Shown here piece by piece: positions 3,101 to 37,116 of a DNA stretch of 37,116 bases. The DNA comes from an uncultured Bacteroidales bacterium (GTDB taxonomy: Bacteria; Bacteroidota; Bacteroidia; Bacteroidales; FEN-979), in contig CAIQUS010000049.1 of the NCBI GenBank assembly GCA_903875045.1, forward strand, positions 1 to 37,116, written 5' to 3'. Made by a program: the position numbers and the translations under genes. The notes beneath the pieces are model-generated. The model saw nothing but the letters and a program-made list of their open reading frames with translations. It was not told where the DNA came from and did no database searches. How positions within the stretch are numbered: position 1 is the first letter of the stretch; every line of letters starts with the position of its first letter.

Positions 3101-3930
3101 CGTGTCAGTTTCTCCCTGGGCCCCATAATAAATACTTTTAAAATCGGGAAGCTGACGACAATCAGCAGCAGGGTGAAAATAAAAACAACAATCAGGTCAG
3201 ATGGCAGGCTTCGTTTGTCGCGGATAAACTTTTTTTCCTGGATGAAACCTCCCAGGAAACAATCCGGGTAACCATGAAAATTAACGGGAATAAGGAACAG
3301 GAGATAATTTGTTCCGTGTATTGTGATTTTCTCGATGCTACCTGTCTGGATTCCAAATGGTGTAAACTTTGATTCCTGGGCTCCCGGGATCAGGTTAAAT
3401 GCCGGATCAGACTCGGTGGCTTTCTCCTTTTTTGGTAATGAAACAGCGTCTGACAACTGTATATCCCCGGGCAGGGTGGAAAACATGATCCGCTTGTTGC
3501 GGATAAAGATAAAATCAGAGAAAAAATCCCATCGCAGCAATGGTGTGATAAACTCTTTCAAAAGTATATGAACACTATCTGTTTTTTTTCTGTTGGTAGA
3601 ATCAAACGTATAATAAATAGCGTCCGGTTCGTTGGTCCTGTCTGATTTCAGGCTGGCAGTAATCGGACCGGACCCCCAGGAAAAAGATGGGGACGATCCG
3701 GTTTTGGCTTTTTTATCACTGGCACGGTTGGTTATGATGGTCGAGCAAATAGCATCTTTTTGCTTCATTCCCTCGCCGAGCTTTTCCAACGCATGATAAC
3801 CCCGTTTTTCGAGCGTTTCCTGGTTATCTTCCAGCGTCACAAAAAAATAGATGCTGAGCAGCGCCATCATGGTCAGAAAAATCGCAAGGGCCATCCCCGA
3901 AATGCCAAGTTTTGATAAATGTTTGTTCAT
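166..3930 (-). CDS. Large polytopic membrane sensor-like protein with degenerate NTPase/winged-helix-like C-terminus
   Basis: This is a 1254-residue protein that I cannot assign to a named family. An N-terminal membrane anchor (about 12-32) precedes a first extracytoplasmic region (about 35-240). Two membrane segments (about 245-305) lead to a second extracytoplasmic region (about 305-545) with dCache-like features: FWADETG near 380, NEREYF near 404 and a closing strand with LVDKTGKVWYHS. More membrane segments follow (about 552-580, 608-655, 678-700), then a third extracytoplasmic region (700-865) and a membrane helix (868-892). The cytoplasmic part (about 900-1200) has a hydrophobic strand ending in Asp (VILWMD, about 990) and a winged-helix-like stretch (about 1118-1180) reminiscent of STAND ATPases, but I see no Walker A P-loop. 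Two final hydrophobic segments (1203-1245) end the protein. The gene starts 17 bp after the esterase stop codon and is probably cotranscribed with it. A sensory or signalling role is inference. Confidence 0.7.
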   Translation of the reverse strand: MNKHLSKLGISGMALAIFLTMMALLSIYFFVTLEDNQETLEKRGYHALEKLGEGMKQKDAICSTIITNRASDKKAKTGSSPSFSWGSGPITASLKSDRTNEPDAIYYTFDSTNRKKTDSVHILLKEFITPLLRWDFFSDFIFIRNKRIMFSTLPGDIQLSDAVSLPKKEKATESDPAFNLIPGAQESKFTPFGIQTGSIEKITIHGTNYLLFLIPVNFHGYPDCFLGGFIQEKKFIRDKRSLPSDLIVVFIFTLLLIVVSFPILKVFIMGPREKLTRTGVTMIGISLVTGTLLLVIMLSQQLISYRFQTDQYDQLRILNKTVQKAFTNERDTALKQLDWYNAGNIAFGKETKKHTSILDSDTAANPLLKKPVYLFYKTVFWADETGTQRTIITPYQKYFPSSVNEREYFIHPDKYELNTVRYNMVPIYSQTSGEWAIAFSTPSKNDSARIVALTTSMYSLKWPVLQYGFEYCLVDKTGKVWYHSNEIMNINDSLITESHENKTLISALTSNECDSMELEIRNRNYLAYISPVDNSDLFVVSLLNTARAKSIGALTAMFVFCFFALIFLILFLIYIAIIVWRTKKSKLAGKEYFFKWLLPGKQNNKTYWQLIIFNGAGFIILLGLEICGLFDGLSLAMLIVILVLFMVAHCTLTYRVLTFRIWHGYDKHFKKMPQDVPYYTIFVMSWLLTIVIMPVVLTTSAFFSAETTNFLQRQQQFLAHQINERTETIHQFYKENLTSGKSEAFSGSGDSLFRARNSKGLYFMNIDRTQFQQNISPHTVNHVRGNQPVLKAARSWFDRVMNESEPISTDPMIGSLFPATGDTCVSLIFDRLDYNDQGKKTETKSMITTRNQWSGFFNPFRALPGSVYAFLFWVLIVAMLVLIGFLVNRLVRKLFFSCESECVPVPLFQELDTIAKARVNAIIISYHDPEIEELGNREWECIDMAEVSISADTPVDERRVLYNLEPGIESLLNFRNRIQFLEKQLKKRPVILWMDKTPERLVATYKDGWDKQKEHGESATQISQFNRLIFGIPFIYPEIQQPETEGPWLCEKLSAILEAEKRFNPEVQRYHLLIKGKIKRCCENTTSNVHDIKGMEPICSAVAEDLILKIQELSTSFYDYVWGSLSEDEQFLLLDLAQDTLLNLKNKKTITLLFKKGILHRKERIEIVSPSFKNYILTEIDKTSFETMQKKIDEEGTWHRFKVPLILIATSLMVFLFVTQQNFLSGLNTILVSAGALVGVYLRFSGLFSKSKGT

Positions 3931-3947
3931 AAAATCTAAGGTTTAAG

Positions 3948-6107
3948 TTAGAAATTAATGATGATCTCATCAACAAAAAGCCATGCCTTTCCTCCCTTCC
4001 CAGGATGCCATTTCGGACAAAAGCCGGTGTTTTTGGCATAAATTCTGATAAATCTTGCAACGGGGCCGGTTTGACCTGATCCTGGTTGTTGCTGTTCCGA
4101 ACCAATTCCCGGCTCAAAACAATATTCTTTCAAGATAACATCGGTGGTTTTCTGTGATTCCATGGTCTTGATTTCCCTGGAAGGTGAATATTTCACGCCA
4201 TCTTTTGAAATACTGATCTGTACCAGGGTGGGCAGAAAAATCCATGATCCGGAATTCTGCATAAACCCGGCACAGATGTTTTTGACAGAAATCGTATCGC
4301 CCAGATCGATGATTGCATCAAAATCAACCCCCTGATATCCCTGCCAAAAACTATCGGTGAAGTCCTCTGATCCCTGCACCCCGTCGAGCAGCGCGTTGCT
4401 GCCGCCCGGATACTGCTTAGCAAAAGGATGCGTGGTTGTGATACGTTTGTTGATCCCGGCATGACGAAAATATTTTGATTTGCTGACAAGAGAGGAAACA
4501 AGGCTCCCTTTGAACGCCCGGGCTCCGATGCTGCAGGAATGATCGAGCAGAATTGGCTTTTGATACAGCACCGAAGATTTGTCGGGTTCGGTTCCGTCCA
4601 GCGAATAGCGAACCTGGCAAAGGGTGTCGCTGCATTTCAGCGAAAGTTGTTTCAATCCGGTCAGGCTGTCGGTTGAGTAAACGATTTCCACCGGACGGTT
4701 GAAAAACGGGATTGTATCCGTTCTGAAGGGAACCGCAGGCAAACCAGCCTGATTAAAAAGATTAACAGAATCAGTATCCGAAAAAGCATATCGCACCGAA
4801 ACAGGTTCAGATACATTCTGGCTGGTAACAACTACACAATGGCCATCGATCTTTGCATCTGCTTGATAAAAAACATTGTCCTTCCCTGCTATTTTAAAAC
4901 AGGTCAGATCTTCCCCTTTTTTAAACAACCCGCCTTGGACATTTTCGAAGAAAAGCCGAACACTGCTCCCTTCAACCGTCATGCTTCTGTATTCAGGGCC
5001 TTTACAAATAATATTTTCAAAACCATACGTCCCGGAAAGGGCAAGCAAGGCAAGCCGCAATCCGACATCCTGCTTGTTCGCGGGGTGGATGTTCCCGGGG
5101 TTTCCAATATCCATGGTCACGGCCATCCCTGTGTTGGGGACAGACAGCGCCTTAAACTGTGCTTCCCTCAGGTAAGCAGCCGCATCAATATTTTCTTCAT
5201 AAGCAAACGGGGCGATCTGAACATAATAAAACGGGAAATCACCTTGTTTCCAGGCTTCACGCCAGTTGCGGATCATCGTTGTAAAGAGCTTTTCATACAG
5301 ATCGGACTGGTACCTGTTGCTTTCTCCCTGGTACCAGATAACTCCACTGATCCTGAAATTCAGCAGCGGATGGACCATGGCATTGTACAATCCTGACGCG
5401 TTCCGGTAATTGCTTTGATCGCTGTTCGGTGACTTCAGGAAATAGTGTAAATTTTCATCCGCTTCCAGGTATTTCCGGTCGGTCCATGCCTCAGCAGGCG
5501 TTCCGCCGATGTTGGTGGAAATAAGTCCGACCGGAACATGCAGCCTGTTAAACAACTCCCTGCCAAAAAACCATGCAGTGGCACTGAAATCATAAACATT
5601 CTTTACTGTTGCTCTCTTCCAGGTTGCTTTGCATGAATCCTGCGGAACAGACTCCCAGGCATGAGCTACCTGACAAAGACGGATTTGGGTATAATCCGAT
5701 GTTCCGAGGTCTTTCTTCTCATTCTTGTATTTCTCCCATCCACCCAGCATGTTAATGGTAAATTCCATATTTGACTGGCCGGAACAGACCCAAACTTCGC
5801 CAAAAAGAATATCGGTCAATACAATCTTGTTTGTTCCGGTGATCACCATGGAATGCGGTCCGCCAGCCGGGCCGGTAGTTATTGCGACACTCCACTTCCC
5901 GTCGGCCCCGGTGGTTGTCTGAACCGGTTCGGCCAGCCAGGACGCCGCTATCTTTACCATTTCTCCCTGACCGGCCCATCCCCATATCTTTACCACAGAA
6001 TTCCGCTGCAACACCATTCCCGAAGCTAAAACCGAAGGCAAACGCACCGCGGCTTCCCCCGACAGCCATAAAAAAACAAAGAAAATACTGAAAATAATTT
6101 GTTTCAC
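3948..6107 (-). CDS. Sialate O-acetylesterase-like SGNH hydrolase with C-terminal CHB_HEX-like and F5/8C-like modules
   Basis: Members of this family remove O-acetyl groups from sialic acids or other sugars so that exo-glycosidases can proceed. The protein has 719 residues with a signal peptide (1-20). The catalytic block shows CSGQSNMEF (Ser112 the likely nucleophile), NIGGTPAEAW (199-208), WYQGESN (258-264) and GNIHPANKQ with His341, the usual SGNH/DUF303 set. After about residue 478 comes a region like the chitobiase C-terminal domain (YSLDGTEPD motif), then a discoidin/F5/8C-like sandwich (about 555-719). That tail is familiar from beta-hexosaminidases and is longer than a plain esterase needs, suggesting glycan binding. 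There is no lipobox, so the product is probably periplasmic or secreted. It is the first gene of a likely two-gene unit with the large membrane protein. The substrate is inferred from the family only. Confidence 0.87.
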   Translation of the reverse strand: MKQIIFSIFFVFLWLSGEAAVRLPSVLASGMVLQRNSVVKIWGWAGQGEMVKIAASWLAEPVQTTTGADGKWSVAITTGPAGGPHSMVITGTNKIVLTDILFGEVWVCSGQSNMEFTINMLGGWEKYKNEKKDLGTSDYTQIRLCQVAHAWESVPQDSCKATWKRATVKNVYDFSATAWFFGRELFNRLHVPVGLISTNIGGTPAEAWTDRKYLEADENLHYFLKSPNSDQSNYRNASGLYNAMVHPLLNFRISGVIWYQGESNRYQSDLYEKLFTTMIRNWREAWKQGDFPFYYVQIAPFAYEENIDAAAYLREAQFKALSVPNTGMAVTMDIGNPGNIHPANKQDVGLRLALLALSGTYGFENIICKGPEYRSMTVEGSSVRLFFENVQGGLFKKGEDLTCFKIAGKDNVFYQADAKIDGHCVVVTSQNVSEPVSVRYAFSDTDSVNLFNQAGLPAVPFRTDTIPFFNRPVEIVYSTDSLTGLKQLSLKCSDTLCQVRYSLDGTEPDKSSVLYQKPILLDHSCSIGARAFKGSLVSSLVSKSKYFRHAGINKRITTTHPFAKQYPGGSNALLDGVQGSEDFTDSFWQGYQGVDFDAIIDLGDTISVKNICAGFMQNSGSWIFLPTLVQISISKDGVKYSPSREIKTMESQKTTDVILKEYCFEPGIGSEQQQPGSGQTGPVARFIRIYAKNTGFCPKWHPGKGGKAWLFVDEIIINF

Positions 6108-26152: not shown

Positions 26153-29100
26153 ATGCGGGCCAAAGCTCTTATCTTATTTATTTTTACTGTTATTAACCAC
26201 CTGGTTTTCTCTCAAACGGCTACCATTACTGGGAAAGTAACATCCGAAGAAGACCAAAAAGGAATACCTGGTGTGACGGTGGTGATCAAGGGAACCGTGA
26301 AAGGCATCACCACGGATTTGGACGGCAATTACTCCCTGTCAGGCGTAAATCCGTCTGATACCCTGAGATTTAGTTTCATAGGTTTCGAAACGCGTGACAT
26401 CGCGGTTGGGAAGCAGTTAAAAATCGATGTCCTTCTTTTTGTTGACACAAGGGATCTCGAGGAGTTTGTGGTCACCGCCTTCGGGGTAAAACGACAGCTG
26501 CGTGAAATCGGATATTCCACCCAGCATATCGATGCAGAAGTTGTCGTCAGGTCAAACACACCGAACATTCTCAATGGCATGATTGGCCGTGCGGCAGGGG
26601 TCCAGGTTTCACAGGGCGATGGTCTGGAGGGTAGTTCCACCCGTATCGTGATCAGAGGCAACAACACCTTCAGCGGGAAAAACCAGCCCTTGATTGTCGT
26701 CGATAATGTTCCATTGGAAAACATTCCCGGGCAGGAGAATGTTGGCCGTGGAATTGACTGGGGAAATCCCATCTCGGATATTAATTCGCTCGACATCGAA
26801 ACCTATGATGTGCTGAAAGGGGGTGCCGCATCCGCTCAATATGGTTCAAGAGGCGCCAATGGTGTCATCCTGATCACCACCAAGCGAGGAAAAAAACAGG
26901 AAGGGCTGGGCGTTTCCTACAGTTACAGTTATAAATGGACACATCCATACAGGTTCCGGGAGATGCAGAATACTTATGGCGCCGGAGGCCCGGTCTCTTT
27001 CACCCCCCCTGCATTCCCGATGAGTGGCGACACGATGATGTTGTACCCTGTTTACGGTACCGATAACCTGATCATCAATCAGCAGGGCGAAACACGATCA
27101 ACCACCGAGGAGTTTGGTTATTATGGATCAGCGGTTTCATGGGGACCGAAGATGGAAGGCCAGATGATCAAATGGTGGGACGGCAAAATGCGGCCCTATA
27201 CGCCTCAGCCCGACAATTATCAATCGGCATTTCAGGATGGCTCCACCCAAACCCATAACATTTCAGCTTCCGGGGGTAATGACAAGGGAAACCTTCGTAT
27301 CTCCATTACCCGGCAGGATAATAAAGCCATCATCAGCAACAGTTCTTTTAACCGGACTACCATCAATCTGGGAGCAGGGTTAAAAATATCATCGAAAATT
27401 CTGGCCGATCTTACCCTTTCTTACATCAATTTCAACCGGCTGAACAGTCCCATGCTGGGCGAATCGGAGGAATCGTTCAGCAAAGGGTTCCTCTATTCCT
27501 GGCCAAGAAGCTATAAAGGGATCGACAAGGAAAACTATGCAAACCCCGACGGATCACAGAATCCCCAGGAAGGTTATCCGTTCCTTTATATCAAGCCTAC
27601 GCTTTGGTGGGACTATTATAACAACAATACGACCCTGAAACGGGATAAGTATTTCGGTGCGCTGACACTGACATGGGAGATCACCCCATGGCTTAATCTG
27701 ACCGGCCGGGCAGGCCGGGATTTCAACCTCGACCAATATACCACCAAAAACAAACCAACCGATGTACTGGGGTTAAAAAACGGATATTATGCGAACAGCC
27801 TGAACCGGACCTATTCTGATATTTTTGACGGGTTACTTACTGCGAACAAGGAGGGATTTCTTCATCAAAAACTTGATGTAAAATTCACCCTGGGGGCAAG
27901 CCGCTGGGACTACTATTTATATGAGATCAGGGGACACTCCGGAACCTGGTATTTTCCAAACCGTTACACCTTTGATAATTTCACTTCGCCAACCTATATT
28001 ACCAATGCGCAGGGCGAAGTAATCGTCAGCAATCCCGGAGATCCTCCCGGAAGCATGAGACCCGGAGAATCTATCATGCGCGAAAGGACCAATTCTGTAT
28101 TCTCTTTCCTGAACCTGGCCTGGGATAATTACCTGTTCCTGGAATTAACCGGAAGAAATGACTGGTCATCCACATTGCCCGCTGAAAGCAACTCCTATTT
28201 TTATCCGGCTGTTTCTGTAAGTTTTATTGCCACCGAGGCATTTAAAATCCAGAAGACGATCAACTGGCTTAACTTCGTGAAAATAAGAGGCGGATTTTCG
28301 AATTCCGCAACCGATACAGATCCGTATATGCTGGAATTTAATTATAATTCCGGCGTTTTCGGGGGGGCACAAACGGCCTCATTCCCTGGGATCATTCCAC
28401 CCTACCGGCTGATGCCGCAACGGGTGAACACCTGGGAGGTTGGTGTGAACCTCGGCTTCTTCGATAGCCGCATCGACTTTGACCTCACCTATTACAATAA
28501 ACACTGTTACTCTCAGATTTTAACCAATCTGCCTGTTCCCGTCAGCTCTGGGGCTTCTGGCATAACAATCAATGAAGGTATTCTCACCAATTCCGGAATT
28601 GAGATCATCATAAATACAATTCCGGTACAGACAAGGGATTTCATAATTAAGTCCGGTATCAACTTTTCACGGAATAAAAATGTTGTGAAAAGCCTTGGTA
28701 ATTATGCCGATATCTATCCGCTAGCCGATATATGGGGATTGAACGGCCCCGCCATGGCACTGAGGGTGGGCGATGAATACGGAACGATTTATGGCTACGA
28801 TTATGTTTATAATTCAGATGGCAAGCGTATCGTGAACGATGAAGGCACCAAATACCTGATTACCGACACACGTGTTCCGATCGGCAATGCTTCACCTGAT
28901 TTTATCGCCGGCTGGCAAACGGAGTTCATCTATAAAGGGTTCAGGCTGGCAGCGCTGATTGATACCAAATGGGGCGGCGATATTTATTGCGGTTCTTATG
29001 TGATCTCGCTGCAAACCGGACAAAGTCCCGAAACCCTGCTGGAACGGGAAGGTGGCGGGTTGCCCTACACCGACCCTGCCGGAAAAACATCGAACATCGG

Positions 29101-29473
29101 CATCATCCTCGACGGAGTACATGCCGATGGAACCCCGAATGACAAAGTGGTGCACTATTATTATAAATATCTGCCCAATGCCGGAGGATGGGGCAAATTG
29201 CTTTCCACCCCCGGAATCCTGGAAAATTCATGGGTGAAGATGCGGGAAATATCCCTGTCATATACCTTTCAGAACCGGTTTATCGACAAATTGAAGATAT
29301 TTAAGAACCTCACGGTTTCGGTAGTTGGCAGGGATCTTTTTTACATATACTCATCACTGCCCGACCATATAAACCCTGAAGGCATCATGGGTTCCGGGAA
29401 TGCCCAGGGATTTGAATGGGCATCCATGCCGGGAACGATGTCGCTGACTTTTGGTATTGCGGCAGCATTTTAA
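26153..29473 (+). CDS. SusC/RagA-family TonB-dependent outer-membrane transporter
   Basis: SusC-like proteins import oligosaccharides or peptides across the outer membrane together with a SusD lipoprotein lid, driven by TonB. The 1106-residue protein has a signal peptide (about 1-20), a carboxypeptidase-regulatory-like domain (about 22-105, TITGKVTSEEDQKGIPGVTV), a plug domain (about 118-235, with VVDNVPLENIPG and GSRGANGVILITTKRG) and a 22-strand-type barrel ending in Phe (SLTFGIAAAF). No N-terminal STN domain is visible, so it is probably not wired to an anti-sigma factor. It is followed by the susD gene 37 bp downstream and has its own promoter. The ligand is unknown. Confidence 0.96.
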   Translation: MRAKALILFIFTVINHLVFSQTATITGKVTSEEDQKGIPGVTVVIKGTVKGITTDLDGNYSLSGVNPSDTLRFSFIGFETRDIAVGKQLKIDVLLFVDTRDLEEFVVTAFGVKRQLREIGYSTQHIDAEVVVRSNTPNILNGMIGRAAGVQVSQGDGLEGSSTRIVIRGNNTFSGKNQPLIVVDNVPLENIPGQENVGRGIDWGNPISDINSLDIETYDVLKGGAASAQYGSRGANGVILITTKRGKKQEGLGVSYSYSYKWTHPYRFREMQNTYGAGGPVSFTPPAFPMSGDTMMLYPVYGTDNLIINQQGETRSTTEEFGYYGSAVSWGPKMEGQMIKWWDGKMRPYTPQPDNYQSAFQDGSTQTHNISASGGNDKGNLRISITRQDNKAIISNSSFNRTTINLGAGLKISSKILADLTLSYINFNRLNSPMLGESEESFSKGFLYSWPRSYKGIDKENYANPDGSQNPQEGYPFLYIKPTLWWDYYNNNTTLKRDKYFGALTLTWEITPWLNLTGRAGRDFNLDQYTTKNKPTDVLGLKNGYYANSLNRTYSDIFDGLLTANKEGFLHQKLDVKFTLGASRWDYYLYEIRGHSGTWYFPNRYTFDNFTSPTYITNAQGEVIVSNPGDPPGSMRPGESIMRERTNSVFSFLNLAWDNYLFLELTGRNDWSSTLPAESNSYFYPAVSVSFIATEAFKIQKTINWLNFVKIRGGFSNSATDTDPYMLEFNYNSGVFGGAQTASFPGIIPPYRLMPQRVNTWEVGVNLGFFDSRIDFDLTYYNKHCYSQILTNLPVPVSSGASGITINEGILTNSGIEIIINTIPVQTRDFIIKSGINFSRNKNVVKSLGNYADIYPLADIWGLNGPAMALRVGDEYGTIYGYDYVYNSDGKRIVNDEGTKYLITDTRVPIGNASPDFIAGWQTEFIYKGFRLAALIDTKWGGDIYCGSYVISLQTGQSPETLLEREGGGLPYTDPAGKTSNIGIILDGVHADGTPNDKVVHYYYKYLPNAGGWGKLLSTPGILENSWVKMREISLSYTFQNRFIDKLKIFKNLTVSVVGRDLFYIYSSLPDHINPEGIMGSGNAQGFEWASMPGTMSLTFGIAAAF

Positions 29474-29496
29474 TGATTTACGATTGACGATTTAAA
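29474..29496. repeat. AAATCGT-family repeat at the susC 3' end
   Basis: GATTTACGATTGACGATTT begins right after the susC stop codon. In reverse complement it matches the CGTCAATCGTAAATC units of the repeat at 9031-9080. It sits between susC and susD. Confidence 0.65.
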
Positions 29497-29510
29497 ATAA
29501 CCATTTGATT

Positions 29511-31142
29511 ATGAAATGGAACCATAGGTTAACAACATTAATATTGTTTGTGTTAATAATATCCCTGGCAGGATGCCGGAAGGATTTTACGGAGATCAAC
29601 ACCAACCCGAACTCCTTTTCAACGGCAAGCGACGGCTCATTGTTCAATGAGGTGGTCTCAACCTTGACATTGGGAGGGAATGAACAATTCTACATAAACA
29701 ATGAGATCCTCTATAAACAAACCCAGCAGGCTGCCTTGACCAGAGAAGGCTGGGGAAATTTCACTTTGGGTACCGAGGAGATCTGGAGCAACTATTACGG
29801 GGCACTTCCCGAGATAAGGGAACTTGAAAAACGGTTCAGCAAATATGACAATTCGCCAGGGGTGACAAATATGAGAGCCATGCTGAAAATTATCATGGCG
29901 ATGAAAACCTTTAAAGTGACAGATATATTCGGGGATATTCCTTTCAGCCAGGCAGGTTACGCGTTTCAAAACCTTGATTTCCTGCGGCCCAGGTTTGACA
30001 AGCAAAGAGATATCTACCTGGCGCTCCTGAATGATCTGAAATGGGCTGATGAAAATATCAATGAGACTGCCCCACGCGTTGAACCTTTTACTTCGTTCAG
30101 TGGATTTGACAAACTTTTCAAGGGTGATATGAAGTTTTGGCGAAAAATGGCCAATTCCCTCCGTCTGAGGCATGCCATGCGCATGGCGGAAAAAGAGCCG
30201 GCACTGGCCGGAGAAATTATCAGGGATATCATTGAAAACAACAGACCAGTTTTCGTTGGTTATACGATGACCGCTCCGGTCCTTGAAAGTGCCTGTTTAT
30301 GGCCCGCCGCCGTTGGCTTTAAAAATGAGAGTCTCAGCTGGTCATTCCGGGAGCATAAGAACCTTCGGATGGGATCCAACATCTGGCATCTTCTTTCTGA
30401 CAACGACAGCATCAGCGGAAGCGGCATCTTCGATCCGCGTGCCTATATTTTTTTCGAAACAAACAACTTAAACCAATGGGTGCCCTATCCCCAGATTCCT
30501 GATGCCACCACTCCTTCCGAAGGAGGAATCCCATACGACAGTCACAGAGATCAGACAGGGGCCTTCGGTATTAAAGGGGAAACATGTCGCTATTCTCCAT
30601 TTAACTATTTCATTATCTATGATATTAACTATATGCCTGTTATCCTTTTTACCGGGGCTGAAATTCATTTTCTCAAGGCAGAAGCCTTGTTCAGGGGAAT
30701 CGGTGTTGCAGTGAACAAGGATATGGCCGATAATGAATATATGAATGGAGTTAATGCATCAGTGGCATGGTGGCTGAACGTTTCAAAAAATTCCAAACTT
30801 CCCTTATCGGGCATGACCTTTCCGGAAATGATCCCCATTCCCGAAAATCTGAACGCTACCTCTGTGCTGATGCGCTATGGAAGCTGGAATGCTGCTACGG
30901 AAGAGGAAAAGCTGGAATTCATCTATACCCAGTGGTTGCTGGATGCTTTCCGTCAGCCCTGGGAAATTTATGCGCTTGTCCGCAGAACCGGTAAAACTCC
31001 GCACGAAGGAACGCCTGCCAACCATTTCCGGCTGCCCTACCCGCCATCAGAGGTGGAATACAACCCGGCCAATTGTGCAACCGCCATTTCACTGCAGGGG
31101 GGCGATAAACCGGATAATAAAATCTGGTGGATACCGAATTAG
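29511..31142 (+). CDS. SusD/RagB-family outer-membrane lipoprotein (SusD-like_2 type)
   Basis: SusD-like lipoproteins cap the SusC barrel on the cell surface and bind the nutrient. The 543-residue protein has a lipoprotein signal peptide with lipobox LAGC (Cys22). The N-terminal stretch RKDFTEINTNPNSFSTAS and the following helical TPR-like region (MRAMLKIIMAMKTFKVTDIFGDIPFSQAG, shown here only as a locator) fit the SusD-like_2 group. The C-terminal part contains FIYTQWLLDAFRQPWEIYA and KIWWIPN, also usual for that group. I chose ATG 29511, since the TTG six bases earlier only adds two residues. It pairs with the SusC gene immediately upstream. Confidence 0.95.
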   Translation: MKWNHRLTTLILFVLIISLAGCRKDFTEINTNPNSFSTASDGSLFNEVVSTLTLGGNEQFYINNEILYKQTQQAALTREGWGNFTLGTEEIWSNYYGALPEIRELEKRFSKYDNSPGVTNMRAMLKIIMAMKTFKVTDIFGDIPFSQAGYAFQNLDFLRPRFDKQRDIYLALLNDLKWADENINETAPRVEPFTSFSGFDKLFKGDMKFWRKMANSLRLRHAMRMAEKEPALAGEIIRDIIENNRPVFVGYTMTAPVLESACLWPAAVGFKNESLSWSFREHKNLRMGSNIWHLLSDNDSISGSGIFDPRAYIFFETNNLNQWVPYPQIPDATTPSEGGIPYDSHRDQTGAFGIKGETCRYSPFNYFIIYDINYMPVILFTGAEIHFLKAEALFRGIGVAVNKDMADNEYMNGVNASVAWWLNVSKNSKLPLSGMTFPEMIPIPENLNATSVLMRYGSWNAATEEEKLEFIYTQWLLDAFRQPWEIYALVRRTGKTPHEGTPANHFRLPYPPSEVEYNPANCATAISLQGGDKPDNKIWWIPN

Positions 31143-31146
31143 TCAA

Positions 31147-31172
31147 ATTGAAAATTGAAAATTGAGAATTCA
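31147..31172. repeat. AAATTGA simple repeat at the susD 3' end
   Basis: The unit AAATTGAA/AAATTGAG occurs about three times, starting 2-5 bp after the susD stop codon. It resembles the GGAAATTGAAAA units in the rplY leader. Confidence 0.6.
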
Positions 31173-31233
31173 GAAAAGACAATCCGGTTGTGCCATTGGT
31201 TTACAAGGAATTAAAAGATTGGTTAACAATCTT

Positions 31234-31328
31234 TAGCTTTGCGGTTCTCTGCGTAATAACTCACCGGTTCTCTGCGGTTAACTTTTTTTACCGCGGAGTT
31301 ACGCAAAGAAATCGCAAAGAGCCACAGA
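31234..31328. repeat. Interspersed CTTTGCGG/CTCTGCGG hairpin repeat, copy 2
   Basis: Units TTTGCGGTTCTCTGCG and CCGGTTCTCTGCGG are mirrored after a T-run by CCGCGGAGTTACGCAAAG and CGCAAAGAGCCACAGAG, giving an imperfect inverted repeat related to the one at 1-104. The first unit begins with TAGCTTTG (31234-31241), a match to the -7 promoter consensus. It lies between susD and the PNGase F-like gene and could act as a terminator, processing site or promoter. Confidence 0.7.
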
Positions 31329-31406
31329 GTAGCTAAATAATAATTACACAAGCGGATAGTCATAAAAATTAAAAAACAAAACAGGTCAAACAAAAAACAA
31401 ATCCCG

Positions 31407-33914
31407 ATGAAAAAAATGTACTTCAATTTTAACCTGCTGCTGATCACTGTGTTGATGTTGCAGCCTTTTTTACTGATGTCTCAGTCGAACCAGTATCTGC
31501 ATTTTGATAAGGTAGATGATTTTGCGCAGTTACCGAACGGTTCACAGTATTTTTCGGGCGGTACCCAGCTCTCGCTCACCGGATGGTTTTATTGCGATGC
31601 ACTTGCTTACGGACAGGGTTATATGGGATTCCGTGCCGGTTCGGGAACAGCAGAATTCTACATGATCCAGTTGAACACCGGGGTTATGGAATGCCGCCTG
31701 CTTACCACGGCAGGGCTATTCGAATTTGTAGCTCCGGCAAACACCGCCATTCCTCAGATTTGGCAGCACTTCGCCTGGATTTACGATGGATCCACCATAA
31801 AACTTTATGTCAACGGGGTTTTGAAAGGCAGCAAACCTGCTTCGGGAACTTTTCTTGGTCCGAATGTAACCTTTGCCATCGGGAAAAGTGTGCTGGGTGG
31901 TTTCAATTTTGTTTATGGCGGAAGGGTTGATGAGGTTTCCGCCTGGAATAAGGCACTCACACAGGCTGAGATCCAGAATATCATGGCCAATGAACTCACC
32001 GGCCAGGAGGCAAACCTGCAACTTTATTATAAGTTTAACCAGGGTGTGCCCGGGGGCAACAACACCTCCATCACCAAACTGATTTGCATGACAGGCAACG
32101 GCGAACGGGATGCCGACCTGCTGAACTTTGCCATGACAGGCGCTACCTCCAATTTCAACGGCACACTCGATCCGGGTTATCAGGCCATTTCATTCCCGCA
32201 GATACCTGATCATCTTACCACCGATCCTCCTTTTACCATTGATGCTACTGCCACATCAGGCCTCCCGGTGGGTTTTGAAGTGCTGTCGGGCCCTGCCACC
32301 ATCAATGGTTATACAGTCACCCTCACAGGTGCCCCCGGAGAGGTCAGCATCAAGGCCACTCAACCCGGAAATGGCACTTTCTCTGCTGCAGATCCGGTTA
32401 TTAACAAGTTCATGGTCCTCGACCCGATGCTGCATGTGCCTTTGATCGATGCCCGGCATCCGCTGGCAGGAGATGTGTTTGTAACATCTCTTTCAAAGAT
32501 ACTGCTCTCGGCTTTTTCAACAATCGCCTACCCGGCATTGTTCCATGTGCAGGAGGTGAAGTTCAAGATAAATTCAGAGACGATTCCGGCACAGACCTTT
32601 AATAACGGACACTTTATTGCCTGGTGGACACCTCCCTCTTATGGCAACTATACCCTCACCATTATTTCTACCAACAATTACGGCGCTTCTGCCGAGGAAA
32701 CATTTACCATAAACATTGTCCCCGAAGCAACCAATATGGTAGTCGTCGCAGCACAAAACGTATGGCTTAATCCGACCAATGTCACGCAAACCGTTGCTGC
32801 CGACTTACCATCCTATCTTGGTGCATTTGAAAAAGTAACGGCCACCTTGTCACTCACATGTCCGCCGGGGGGCTGCGGCGAATGGGACAGGGTTGCCAGT
32901 GTTGATTTGAAAGGCCACAACGGCCAATGGTATGAGATCATACGGTATATCACGCCTTATGGCGTTGCCTGTTCACATTCCATCGATTTGACCGATTACA
33001 TGTCGCTTTTGCTCGGGAAAGCAGAATTCAGGTTCAATTGTTCTACCCTCGACAACGGTTACTATTATAAACTCACGTTGAATTACACCAAAGGGGTTCC
33101 GGCATATTTATACAGTACGGTACACGAAGTGTGGAAGGATATTTATCCTTTCGGGGATTATGCCAATCTCCAGCCCGTTGAAAACCGGCTCTTTGAATTT
33201 CCTGATGGTTCGGCAGCGGCTAAACTGAAGTTGGTTTCTACCGGACATGGCTGGGGCGACCTGAATACCAGCAATGCAGCTGAGTTTTATGACGCAACGC
33301 ACCACATCTGGGTAAACGGGGTACAAACCTTTGAACAGCATAATTGGAAAGACTGCAACCCGAATCCCGATGCCTGCCAGCCTCAGAACGGAACCTGGTA
33401 TTATGACCGTGCCGGTTGGTGCCCCGGTTCCATTGCCCAATGGTTTGACTACAGCATGACACCCTATATTGCAGGGCAAAACGTGGAGTTGAAATATGTT
33501 TTTTATGAAAACTATGTCGACCAGTGCCATCCCAACAATCCCAGCTGCGTTACAGGGGTTACCTGTACCAATTGCGCCGATGGGTTCAACCCGACACTTG
33601 ATGTTGCCTGCAACATGGTAGTCTTTGCAAACAATCCGTTGCTGACCGGGACAGAAAACCTGCGTACCACTCCAACACGATACAGTGTCAGGCCAAACCC
33701 CGCCAGCGAAAGTGCAGAGATTTATGCTTTTGGATCCCCTGCTGCACAAACCTTTCCGGTTCAAATGCTGACCATTGCCGGCACATTGGTTGGACAGTTC
33801 GATTGGGATGGAAAATTGCTGAGGCTTAATCTTTCACAGTACCCCAGGGGGGTGTATATCCTGAAGATCCGTACACCGGACAGAACGGAGATCAAAAAGC
33901 TTGTTCTTCAGTAA
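31407..33914 (+). CDS. LamG + PNGase F-like T9SS-exported protein
   Basis: The 835-residue protein has a signal peptide (about 1-25), a LamG/concanavalin-like domain (about 28-215, WFYCDA, WQHFAWIYDGSTIKLYVNG, RVDEVSAWNKALT), Ig-like segments (about 265-440), a PNGase F-like region (about 445-745) and a T9SS sorting domain (about 760-835, VRPNPASES to IKKLVLQ). The PNGase F part contains GCGEWDR (Asp494), EIIRYITPYG, GHGWGDLNTSNAAEF (Glu626) and YDRAGWCPG, recalling peptide:N-glycosidase F, which releases N-glycans from glycoproteins. Asp494 and Glu626 align with PNGase F Asp60 and Glu206 by my reading; the position I align with Glu118 is Ser546. Located after susCD, it suggests glycoprotein deglycosylation; activity is untested. 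Confidence 0.85.
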   Translation: MKKMYFNFNLLLITVLMLQPFLLMSQSNQYLHFDKVDDFAQLPNGSQYFSGGTQLSLTGWFYCDALAYGQGYMGFRAGSGTAEFYMIQLNTGVMECRLLTTAGLFEFVAPANTAIPQIWQHFAWIYDGSTIKLYVNGVLKGSKPASGTFLGPNVTFAIGKSVLGGFNFVYGGRVDEVSAWNKALTQAEIQNIMANELTGQEANLQLYYKFNQGVPGGNNTSITKLICMTGNGERDADLLNFAMTGATSNFNGTLDPGYQAISFPQIPDHLTTDPPFTIDATATSGLPVGFEVLSGPATINGYTVTLTGAPGEVSIKATQPGNGTFSAADPVINKFMVLDPMLHVPLIDARHPLAGDVFVTSLSKILLSAFSTIAYPALFHVQEVKFKINSETIPAQTFNNGHFIAWWTPPSYGNYTLTIISTNNYGASAEETFTINIVPEATNMVVVAAQNVWLNPTNVTQTVAADLPSYLGAFEKVTATLSLTCPPGGCGEWDRVASVDLKGHNGQWYEIIRYITPYGVACSHSIDLTDYMSLLLGKAEFRFNCSTLDNGYYYKLTLNYTKGVPAYLYSTVHEVWKDIYPFGDYANLQPVENRLFEFPDGSAAAKLKLVSTGHGWGDLNTSNAAEFYDATHHIWVNGVQTFEQHNWKDCNPNPDACQPQNGTWYYDRAGWCPGSIAQWFDYSMTPYIAGQNVELKYVFYENYVDQCHPNNPSCVTGVTCTNCADGFNPTLDVACNMVVFANNPLLTGTENLRTTPTRYSVRPNPASESAEIYAFGSPAAQTFPVQMLTIAGTLVGQFDWDGKLLRLNLSQYPRGVYILKIRTPDRTEIKKLVLQ

Positions 33915-33921
33915 AACCAGG

Positions 33922-35247
33922 TCATTTTTTCAATGCCTCCATCGGATCAGGCACCGAATGACTAAGCCCTCCGGCCAATTCATCGTTAAAAGTTGTCGGA
34001 ACATGGTTGGCTTCGGTTCGCTGTTTCCAGGATTGAGATTGCTTCCCGTCATCCTTGCGGATCATGGTGATGCAATTTTCCACCGGGCAGATCAGGGAAC
34101 ATAAATTGCAACCGACACAGTTCTCTTCATTGATCCGGGGAATCCGGTCATTTTTATCATCATTCAGTTCAATGGCCTGGTGGGCGCCATCTTCGCAGGC
34201 AATGTAACATAGCTGGCAACCGATACACTTTTTACTGTCGATGGTTGCTTTTATGCTGTAATTGAGGTTGAGTTCCTCCCAGGTTTTTACATTCGGAAGC
34301 GCTTTCCCGACAAATTGATCAATGGTTGAAAATCCATGTGAATCCATATATTGCCCGAGTCCCGATGTAAGATCACGGATAATTCCAAAACCATAATGCA
34401 TCACAGCCGTGCAAATTTGTACCGATGATGCCCCAAGCAGGATGAATTCCACCGCATCACGCCAGTTTTCAACTCCGCCTATCCCCGAGATCGGTAGCCT
34501 GACCAGCGGATGCTGTGCACAGTTTTTCACCATATTGAGTGCGATCGGTTTTACCGCCGGGCCGCAATATCCGCCATTGGTACTGTGATTTTCAACAACA
34601 GGGTATGTTACAAAATTGTCAATGTCCACACCAATCAAACTCTGAATGGTATTGATCAACGAGATGGCATTTGCCCCTGCACGGCGAGCCGCCTGGGCGG
34701 GCTTGGTAATGTCTGATATGTTAGGCGTTAACTTTACGACGACCGGAATTTTTGCAACCTCCATCACCCAGCGCGTAATGGTTTCAAGGACTTCAGGCTC
34801 CTGCCCCACCACAGAACCCATGCCTCTTTCGCACATCCCGTGAGGGCACCCGAAATTCAGTTCAATTCCATCGGCTCCGGCATTCTGAACATCACTGACA
34901 ATTTGCTGCCACTCCTTTTTGGTTTGTACCATCAATGAAGCAATGACCGCGTGGTTGGGAAAATGTTTTTTAACCTCTTCCATTTCACGCAGGTTATCGC
35001 ATAAACGACGATCGGTTATGAGTTCAATGTTGTTAAACCCCACTACCCTGGTTCCCCGGTGGTTCATCCCGCCATATCTGCTCGAAACGTTCACCACAGG
35101 CACGCCGAGGGTTTTCCACACAGCTCCGCCCCAACCCTGGTCAAATGCCTTCATGATTTGATAACCTGAATTTGTAGGCGGTCCGGAAGCCAGCCAAAAA
35201 GGATTTGGCGCTTTTATGCCGGCAAAATTTATTTCAAGATTGGCCAT
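33922..35247 (-). CDS. preA: NAD-dependent dihydropyrimidine dehydrogenase subunit PreA
   Basis: PreA is the FMN/Fe-S subunit that reduces uracil or thymine (or runs in reverse) with its partner PreT. The 441-residue protein has a dihydroorotate-dehydrogenase-like FMN barrel (about 1-305; NFAGIKAPNPFWLASGPP, ELNFGCPHGMCERGMG, SGIGGVENWRDA) and a C-terminal two-cluster ferredoxin domain with CIGCQLCYIAC (Cys341-351) and CVGCNLCSLIC (Cys377-387). No preT or hydantoinase gene is adjacent in this window. Where mammalian dihydropyrimidine dehydrogenase has its active-site Cys (in LACGQ, from memory), this protein reads SVVGQ; a nearby Cys139 in GMCERG may matter. A -7 box lies upstream. The gene converges on the PNGase F-like gene with a 7-bp gap. 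Confidence 0.93.
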   Translation of the reverse strand: MANLEINFAGIKAPNPFWLASGPPTNSGYQIMKAFDQGWGGAVWKTLGVPVVNVSSRYGGMNHRGTRVVGFNNIELITDRRLCDNLREMEEVKKHFPNHAVIASLMVQTKKEWQQIVSDVQNAGADGIELNFGCPHGMCERGMGSVVGQEPEVLETITRWVMEVAKIPVVVKLTPNISDITKPAQAARRAGANAISLINTIQSLIGVDIDNFVTYPVVENHSTNGGYCGPAVKPIALNMVKNCAQHPLVRLPISGIGGVENWRDAVEFILLGASSVQICTAVMHYGFGIIRDLTSGLGQYMDSHGFSTIDQFVGKALPNVKTWEELNLNYSIKATIDSKKCIGCQLCYIACEDGAHQAIELNDDKNDRIPRINEENCVGCNLCSLICPVENCITMIRKDDGKQSQSWKQRTEANHVPTTFNDELAGGLSHSVPDPMEALKK

Positions 35248-36176: not shown

Positions 36177-36986
36177 ATGCTCAGGATTGACCGGCTCTTT
36201 ATTCTTCTCTTTTCAGGCTTTACAATACTTGCAGGTTGCAGCAAGAACGAAACAATATATGAACCGGTGGGGCCGGACATGGCAACACTAAAGAAACAAT
36301 ACAAACTGGCGGTTATCGATGCAAAAACAGCCCAACCTTATGAGATTTACCGGAGCCTTGTGGCCATCAAATATTATGGAGACAGTACGGCCGGACAAGG
36401 AAATCTATCCTGGTCGGCTGATTCAACCGGGAAAATGCGGATCCTGGTTATTTCATGGATGAAAAAAAGTTCAACCCAATACTGGCCTGCTGGAAAAACT
36501 TTCAAAACCAACAACAACCAGGCTTATATGTCATGGGTAACGACAGCTCCGGAGATGACGGACTTTTTAAAAAAAAACCAGTTCCAGAATCAACCTTCAT
36601 TGCACTTGCGCGTCGCTCAAATTTTGGGAATGCCTCCTGACAGCCAAAATGATTATTTTGTCGAATTCTGGGTTTATCCGGGAAATTTGTTTCGCCCTGC
36701 ACCGGATCCGGAAATCACCGACCATGAAGCCGATCTGTTTTTCCCTTCATCTGCCACCCGGAAGCACAAGTCCTGGTTCCTGAACGAAATGAAGAATAAA
36801 TATGATACCTCAACAACCTCCGCATTCCCATGGACCCGGCTAGGATACACTTATGACTGGGGCAATCCGATTCATCCGATAGGCTTCAGTGAATTTGTCG
36901 TGGATACCTCTTCCCTGGTCACCGTTAAAAGAATCTGTACCTCCTGGGAATATTACCTTACCTCGGGGAATTCTCTAATCGAGTAG
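36177..36986 (+). pseudogene. Lipoprotein gene truncated at its 3' end by an antisense group II intron
   Basis: The reading frame encodes 269 residues with a lipoprotein signal peptide and lipobox LAGC (Cys21). The mature part has no family I recognise. It is Trp-, Tyr- and Lys-rich, with segments such as YWPAGKTFKTNNNQAYMSWV and a C-terminal region LGYTYDWGNPIHPIGFSEFVVD, the latter typical of small secreted Bacteroidota lipoproteins. The last codons (Ile-Glu-stop, 36978-36986) fall inside what I read as the 3' end of a group II intron on the opposite strand. The native frame therefore ends at Leu267 (codon 36975-36977) and its true C-terminus would lie beyond the intron, outside the window. 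Because the intron is antisense to the gene, splicing cannot restore it. The remaining protein may still be made. Confidence 0.7.
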
Positions 36987-37116
36987 GTAGGGGGATTGCT
37001 CCCCCGCCCTCTCACACCACCGGGCATACTTTCGTACACGGCGGTTTCTTTAAATTGTTTAGCCGATTGTAATTCAATGTAAGGTTGTACAAACCTTGCT
37101 CTTCAAACCATCGAAT
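36978..37116 (-). mobile_element. Group II intron, 3' end (domains V and VI), antisense to the lipoprotein gene
   Basis: On the minus strand, 37045-37016 folds as a domain V hairpin. It has a 7-bp lower stem (ACCGCCG with CGGTGGT), a 2-nt CC bulge on the 3' side, a 5-bp upper stem and a GAAA tetraloop. The catalytic triad reads CGC rather than the commoner AGC. Domain VI follows (37013-36981), with an upper stem GGGGGA/TCCCCC, a GCAA loop, and a lower stem (GAG, AGG with CCT, CTC) that leaves one A unpaired at 36984. This is the expected branch-point adenosine, seven nucleotides from a predicted 3' splice site after 36978. The 5' part and most of the reverse transcriptase lie beyond the window. 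Fold and layout are directly visible; the boundary is inferred to within a base or two. Confidence 0.82.
37012..37116 (-). CDS. C-terminal end of a group II intron reverse transcriptase/maturase (partial)
   Basis: The frame open at the window edge reads IRWFEEQGLYNLTLNYNRLN (37116-37057) and runs 34 codons to a TGA at 37014-37012, overlapping intron domain V. The WFEEQGL-NLT pattern resembles the C-terminal tail of LtrA-type intron proteins. Only the tail is present, so neither the reverse transcriptase domain nor the maturase domain can be checked. The frame's continuation through domain V is common for such ORFs but could also mean that the true stop codon has been lost. Confidence 0.6.
   Translation of the reverse strand: MRWFEEQGLYNLTLNYNRLNNLKKPPCTKVCPVV

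Follow-up and report, generated by a model that had tools for sequence, protein, structure and literature searches.

A multicopy group IIC-type intron ending antisense at the end of a lipoprotein gene in an uncultured Bacteroidales bacterium

Group IIC introns are described, in passages of PMC4424553, PMC8919778 and PMC3898094, as inserting at intrinsic terminators or other DNA hairpins. According to a passage of PMC8919778 citing Leclercq 2011, most bacteria carry three or fewer group II introns, and rarely more than ten. A related habit is known from Pseudomonas putida KT2440, for which a table row in PMC1525189 places group II introns in REP palindromes in 2 of 9 cases. Within the library and wording that we searched, no literature on IIC introns at terminators in Bacteroid hosts was found.

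The locus analyzed here is a window of 37,116 nt, which is one whole contig (C49) of the genome of an uncultured Bacteroidales bacterium (G000, hereafter "this genome"). The contig stops 139 nt into a group II intron, whose last bases coincide with the end of a lipoprotein frame on the opposite strand. The features at this end of the window are:

36177..36977, plus strand: lipoprotein gene, codons 1 to 267, with a lipobox-like LAGC read from the sequence and no Pfam, NCBIfam or PHROG family
36978..36986, plus strand: closing Ile-Glu-stop of the lipoprotein frame, its letters supplied by the last 9 intron nt read antisense
36978..37116, minus strand: 3'-terminal 139 nt of a group IIC-type intron (family A), which is cut off where the contig stops
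36981..37013, minus strand: intron domain VI hairpin, with an unpaired A at 36984
37016..37045, minus strand: intron domain V, with CGC triad, GAAA tetraloop and bulge
37012..37116, minus strand: last 34 codons and stop of a reverse transcriptase/maturase, overlapping domain V (frame read by eye)

Identity of the intron end in the window

What lies antisense to the lipoprotein frame is a group II intron 3' end. A 217-base search with the Rfam model RF00029 gave a match at 36978-37046 on the minus strand, covering the model in full (positions 1 to 77), with 36.5 bits and an E-value of 5.4e-6. The Rfam check that the preliminary description had suggested gave a match, but one below the gathering score of 40; the same holds for all six family A copies of this genome, and a scan of the whole window at gathering cut-offs listed nothing. 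The last intron base, 36978, directly follows codon 267, and the match together with the frame coordinates bears out the antisense orientation and the boundary between codons 267 and 268 that had been proposed from the letters.

The strand carrying domains V and VI folds with a z score of -4.8, and none of 200 shuffled sequences was equally stable. The GAAA tetraloop of domain V and the unpaired A of domain VI, seven nt from the intron end, were both seen in the fold, and the CGC triad, whose meaning is taken from a passage of PMC4424553, was read from the sequence; all three had been predicted. The predicted 2-nt bulge of domain V fared less evenly, as it is present in the centroid, whereas a 1-by-3 internal loop takes its place in the minimum-energy structure. 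Domains V and VI of the window copy are built as in other group II introns, and both the catalytic triad and the bulged A are present.

A hand-written structure of the two domains was tested on an alignment of 15 rows (22 loci were examined and 19 yielded the stretch; the duplicates L009, L125 and L030, as well as L023, which had a wrong start, were omitted). It paired 95.2% of 270 cells, versus 31-53% if slid by one to three columns. Changes on both sides were found at 3 of 18 pairs. The double-change cells and the covariation score lay above all 500 shuffles. The number of pairs with double changes was not in excess (189 of 500 shuffles reached it), and further pair types were fewer than in every one of the 500. 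Next to the bulge, the window copy places U opposite C in this structure, at a position that is unpaired in 4 of the 15 rows.

A full relative of family A was found in a genome of the same genus (G020, contig C42, locus L068, 5001-3087, minus strand), where it measures 1,915 nt between boundaries read by eye. Its domain I-IV core was recognized by two Rfam models above their cut-offs (116.3 and 61.1 bits versus 32 and 35), and its RF00029 score, 36.5, is that of the window copy. It encodes a reverse transcriptase/maturase of 483 aa, which has RVT_1 and GIIM as its only Pfam domains at E 0.001 and scores 408.9 bits with the NCBI group II model TIGR04416 (cut-off 300). Compared with solved proteins, it scored 376 bits with the GsI-IIC reverse transcriptase, 347 with 7uim, which we take to be that of the E. 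rectale IIC intron, 138 with LtrA and 115 with 6me0. The best solved match and the Pfam result point to a class C intron protein without endonuclease domain. This protein ends in the same way as the 34-codon tail in the window, and in family A its frame stays open through domain V, with the stop behind it (37012-37116 minus in the window; 3121-4572 minus in L068).

Across the order, related 3' ends at E up to 1e-20 were found in 7 of 393 genomes, this one included; two candidates were scored per genome in this survey, and the matches per genome are therefore lower bounds. Within the family, 8 of 43 genomes, again including this one, had an intron match at E up to 0.001. Among the seven others only G020 matched nearly the whole stretch (94%), the matches in the rest being 42-74 nt long.

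Hairpins at all 5' ends found in the genome

Family A has six 3' ends in this genome, each 137-140 nt from a contig end, and seven 5' ends, recognized by sequence match and also located at contig ends (an eighth match, C113 at 74%, belongs to family B, described below, and was not counted). The six 3' ends have six different downstream flanks and a sharp common boundary. Contigs stop at the intron as expected of a multicopy repeat that collapses in assembly; a multicopy intron accounts for the end of the window contig as well. Counting a second family, the group II intron 3' ends of this genome number at least 16.

The intron 5' end is absent from the window, and the intron body, sought in the assembly via its reverse transcriptase, was not found there. 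The assembly has three RVT_1 genes only, which were rejected as intron body since they score 28.5, 49.1 and 105.5 bits with TIGR04416, far below the cut-off of 300. One of them, at L018 (contig C244), is a reverse transcriptase with best retron-type matches adjoining a Cas1-like gene, the two occupying 1210-2334 and 227-1198 on the minus strand. Another (L017, contig C93, 1162-2373) is a non-intron reverse transcriptase scoring best with retron-type models. The third (L019, contig C29, 1270-2460), to which the 105.5 bits belong, is likewise of non-intron type and passed no model cut-off, its best match being the generic reverse transcriptase model in PADLOC; it may be akin to the DGR enzymes.

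All seven 5' ends lie behind a terminator-like hairpin, with energies of -14.5 to -27.7 kcal/mol in the last 45 nt, and the G020 copy likewise lies behind a stem-loop. Hairpins as stable as the weakest of these eight (-14.5 kcal/mol) occurred in 2.3% of 2,000 random 45-nt stretches and in 2.9% of 654 T-run ends, both drawn from ten stretches of this genome. At least five T directly precede the intron at six of the seven 5' ends, and the remaining one, C20, ends in CTTCATTT. In other genomes of the order, three of four copies have a 5' end behind a hairpin and a T-run, although for one of the three the 5' end was placed through a motif match containing 3 mismatches, and the frame of that copy spans only 218 codons; the 5' end of the fourth was sought and not found. 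By analogy with these sites, we infer that the 5' flank of the window copy, which lies off the contig, is a terminator.

At the other boundary, a convergent open frame ends 0-17 nt from the intron in four of the six cases (the count took in open frames of 100 codons or more, rather than annotated genes). For the other two, the next frame is 58 and 91 nt away and runs in the direction of the intron. The window copy is the one whose convergent frame runs into the intron, while those on C12, C174 and C176 stop 4-17 nt before it.

Family A comprises sub-variants, with three and three copies at the 3' end, and three and four at the 5' end. The G020 copy differs from them at 4 or 8 positions at the 3' end and at 10 or 11 at the 5' end. 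As these differences are not decisive, pairing the window 3' end with one 5' end by sub-variant was rejected. When open frames of 100 or more codons around the seven 5' ends were compared with eight relatives, five matches resulted. One of them, a C20 frame 2.2 kb from the intron end, is 37% identical to a gene that stands 1.4 kb behind the lipoprotein gene of G024, and would be convergent to the lipoprotein if C20 were joined to the window. The intervening G024 gene is a 54% relative of window gene 33922-35247. Joining C20 would also close the lipoprotein frame after one codon, and of the seven ends it is the one that lacks a clean T-run. These sequence matches give a weak hint that C20 may be the partner of the window 3' end.

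Position at the natural end of the lipoprotein gene, judged from homologues

The lipoprotein frame (36177-36986, plus strand) encodes 269 aa and ends Leu267-Ile-Glu-stop, the antisense of the last nine intron nt reading ATC GAG TAG in frame. Searches of Pfam (also at E 10), NCBIfam and PHROGs gave no match. Upstream on the same strand, window positions 26153-33914 hold a TonB-receptor/SusD-type pair and, after it, a protein that combines a lectin-like domain with an N-glycanase C-terminal domain and ends in a T9SS sorting tail, a region that looks like one for glycan uptake.

A match to the lipoprotein was found in 21 of the 43 genomes of the family, this one included. Eighteen homologues with a complete C-terminus were compared, one per genome, with 62-79% identity across the matched stretch; three of them lack part of the N-terminus, and L061 is broken internally. 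Not counted were the fragments L063, L064 and L066, the other piece of L061 (L065) and a distant paralogue of 33-39% identity (L067). All 18 stop 4-8 residues after a conserved Tyr-Tyr: 7 residues in 11 homologues, 4 in four, 8 in two and 6 in one. The window gene has seven residues between Tyr-Tyr and the intron start. Its tail, LTSGNSL, is unlike the commonest homologue tail, QLSLTKK. None of the contigs carrying these homologues was among those with an intron match at E 0.001.

Since the homologues stop at or close to the residue where the intron begins, what the intron replaced was probably no more than the stop and a few codons before it, and the lipoprotein gene is probably complete rather than broken; we infer that its product still works. 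The preliminary description had read the locus as a truncation and a true gene disruption, and had itself named homologues ending naturally at the same residue as the observation that would speak against this. Such homologues are what the comparison yielded, and no loss of a conserved protein part was seen.

The arrangement is very likely that of a multicopy mobile group IIC-type intron inserted between a terminator and the end of a convergent lipoprotein gene. By the mechanism of the known IIC family, the intron ribonucleoprotein would recognize a stem-loop in the DNA, which at this site would be an intrinsic terminator and its T-run, and the intron would reverse-splice directly behind it, to be copied into DNA by the reverse transcriptase. 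The terminator would belong to, or be shared with, the gene convergent to the lipoprotein gene, and the intron would have landed in the gap that separates this terminator from the lipoprotein frame. The protein would keep its full conserved length of 267 residues and gain a new end, Ile-Glu-stop, from the antisense of the domain VI end. Depending on which 5' end is the partner of the window copy, the ancestral tail may have been longer.

Had the intron instead interrupted a longer lipoprotein, at the cost of a functional C-terminal part, one would expect, as is the case, no native stop codon before the intron. If the flanks of the seven family A 5' ends are joined beyond Leu267, the frame continues for 1 codon (C20), 5 (C126), 6 (C78), 19 (C12), 37 (C70), 43 (C39) or 117 (C26), and joining one of the last three would indeed extend it by 37-117 codons. 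These long continuations run through hairpins, however, and the stops of the 18 homologues, 11 of them at the very residue where the intron starts, make such a disruption improbable. An assembly error, in which the repeat was joined to the lipoprotein contig and the living genome has no insertion at the end of the gene, is less credible still. Repeats did break the assembly, as the position of all six 3' ends close to contig ends indicates, but six different flanks meeting one sharp boundary are as expected for real insertions, and in four cases the 3' end adjoins the end of an open frame convergent to it.

A further rival to the preferred explanation holds that the antisense intron end is tolerated not merely as extragenic but as a candidate new 3' end of the lipoprotein mRNA, made of a stop and the domain VI and V hairpins read antisense. 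The in-frame ATC GAG TAG and the strong folding of this region in the sense strand are in its favor, but the other three convergent frames stop before reaching the intron, and we consider this role rather unlikely. At this locus, the antisense intron that closes the frame most likely reflects terminator targeting and not gene loss.

A second family in a palindromic repeat and comparison with known introns

A second intron family, B, has ten 3' ends and seven 5' ends in this genome (an eighth match in the 5'-end search was family A and was not counted). They are located as follows:

5' ends: G000 contigs C113, C57, C137, C226, C53, C225 and C163
3' ends: G000 contigs C10, C39, C40, C68, C81, C92, C104, C106, C198 and C216
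full copy: G013, contig C1 (L069)

The family B protein stops before domain V, unlike that of family A. All seven 5' ends lie 8-11 nt behind a short perfect palindrome (stem of 4-7 bp, loop of 3-4), with a CCNNAGG core in five of the seven flanks. The 8-11 nt spacer ends in TTG or TTGG at six sites and in CTGG at one, and the 3' flank begins with TAG in all ten cases. Family B splits a dispersed REP-like repeat at nearly one point, usually TTG|TAG. The uninterrupted site, CCNNAGG...ATNWTTGTAG, had 108 matches in the whole genome with at most one mismatch, versus 1 for the reversed pattern; as the pattern was written after viewing the sites, this reversed control, and not the count, is the test. 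In places the uninterrupted repeats form 53-nt tandem arrays. A first count of the repeat motif in 133,825 bases of this genome gave no excess (1 match versus 1-5 in five shuffles), and those bases hold almost no such repeats.

On balance, we favor the view that two IIC-type families divide the stem-loop DNA of this genome, A using intrinsic terminators, often between convergent genes, and B a dispersed REP-like palindromic repeat. If this is true, the pair could help to find the component of the ribonucleoprotein that is responsible for hairpin recognition. Family B in its dispersed repeat offers a natural counterpart for studying the choice of stem-loops by IIC introns.

Judged by its sequence, the window intron is of the known group IIC kind, for which features were compared from passages of PMC4424553, PMC8919778, PMC3898094 and PMC7161350. 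Family A shares with B.h.I1, the O. iheyensis intron, Ta.it.I1 and GsI-IIC the CGC triad in domain V, and the insertion behind terminator-like hairpins at several sites. The intron protein of this class consists of reverse transcriptase and maturase without further Pfam domain, as in the G020 copy, whose closest solved enzyme is the GsI-IIC reverse transcriptase. Family A differs from these introns in its host, a Bacteroidales-type metagenome-assembled genome, in a protein frame that runs on through domain V, and in having several sites at the ends of convergent frames, but these differences do not make it another kind of intron. Like the REP introns of P. putida KT2440, family B sits behind a palindromic repeat, but it does so at all seven 5' ends found in this genome, versus 2 of 9 in KT2440. 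Family A, unlike the KT2440 REP introns, lies behind terminators.
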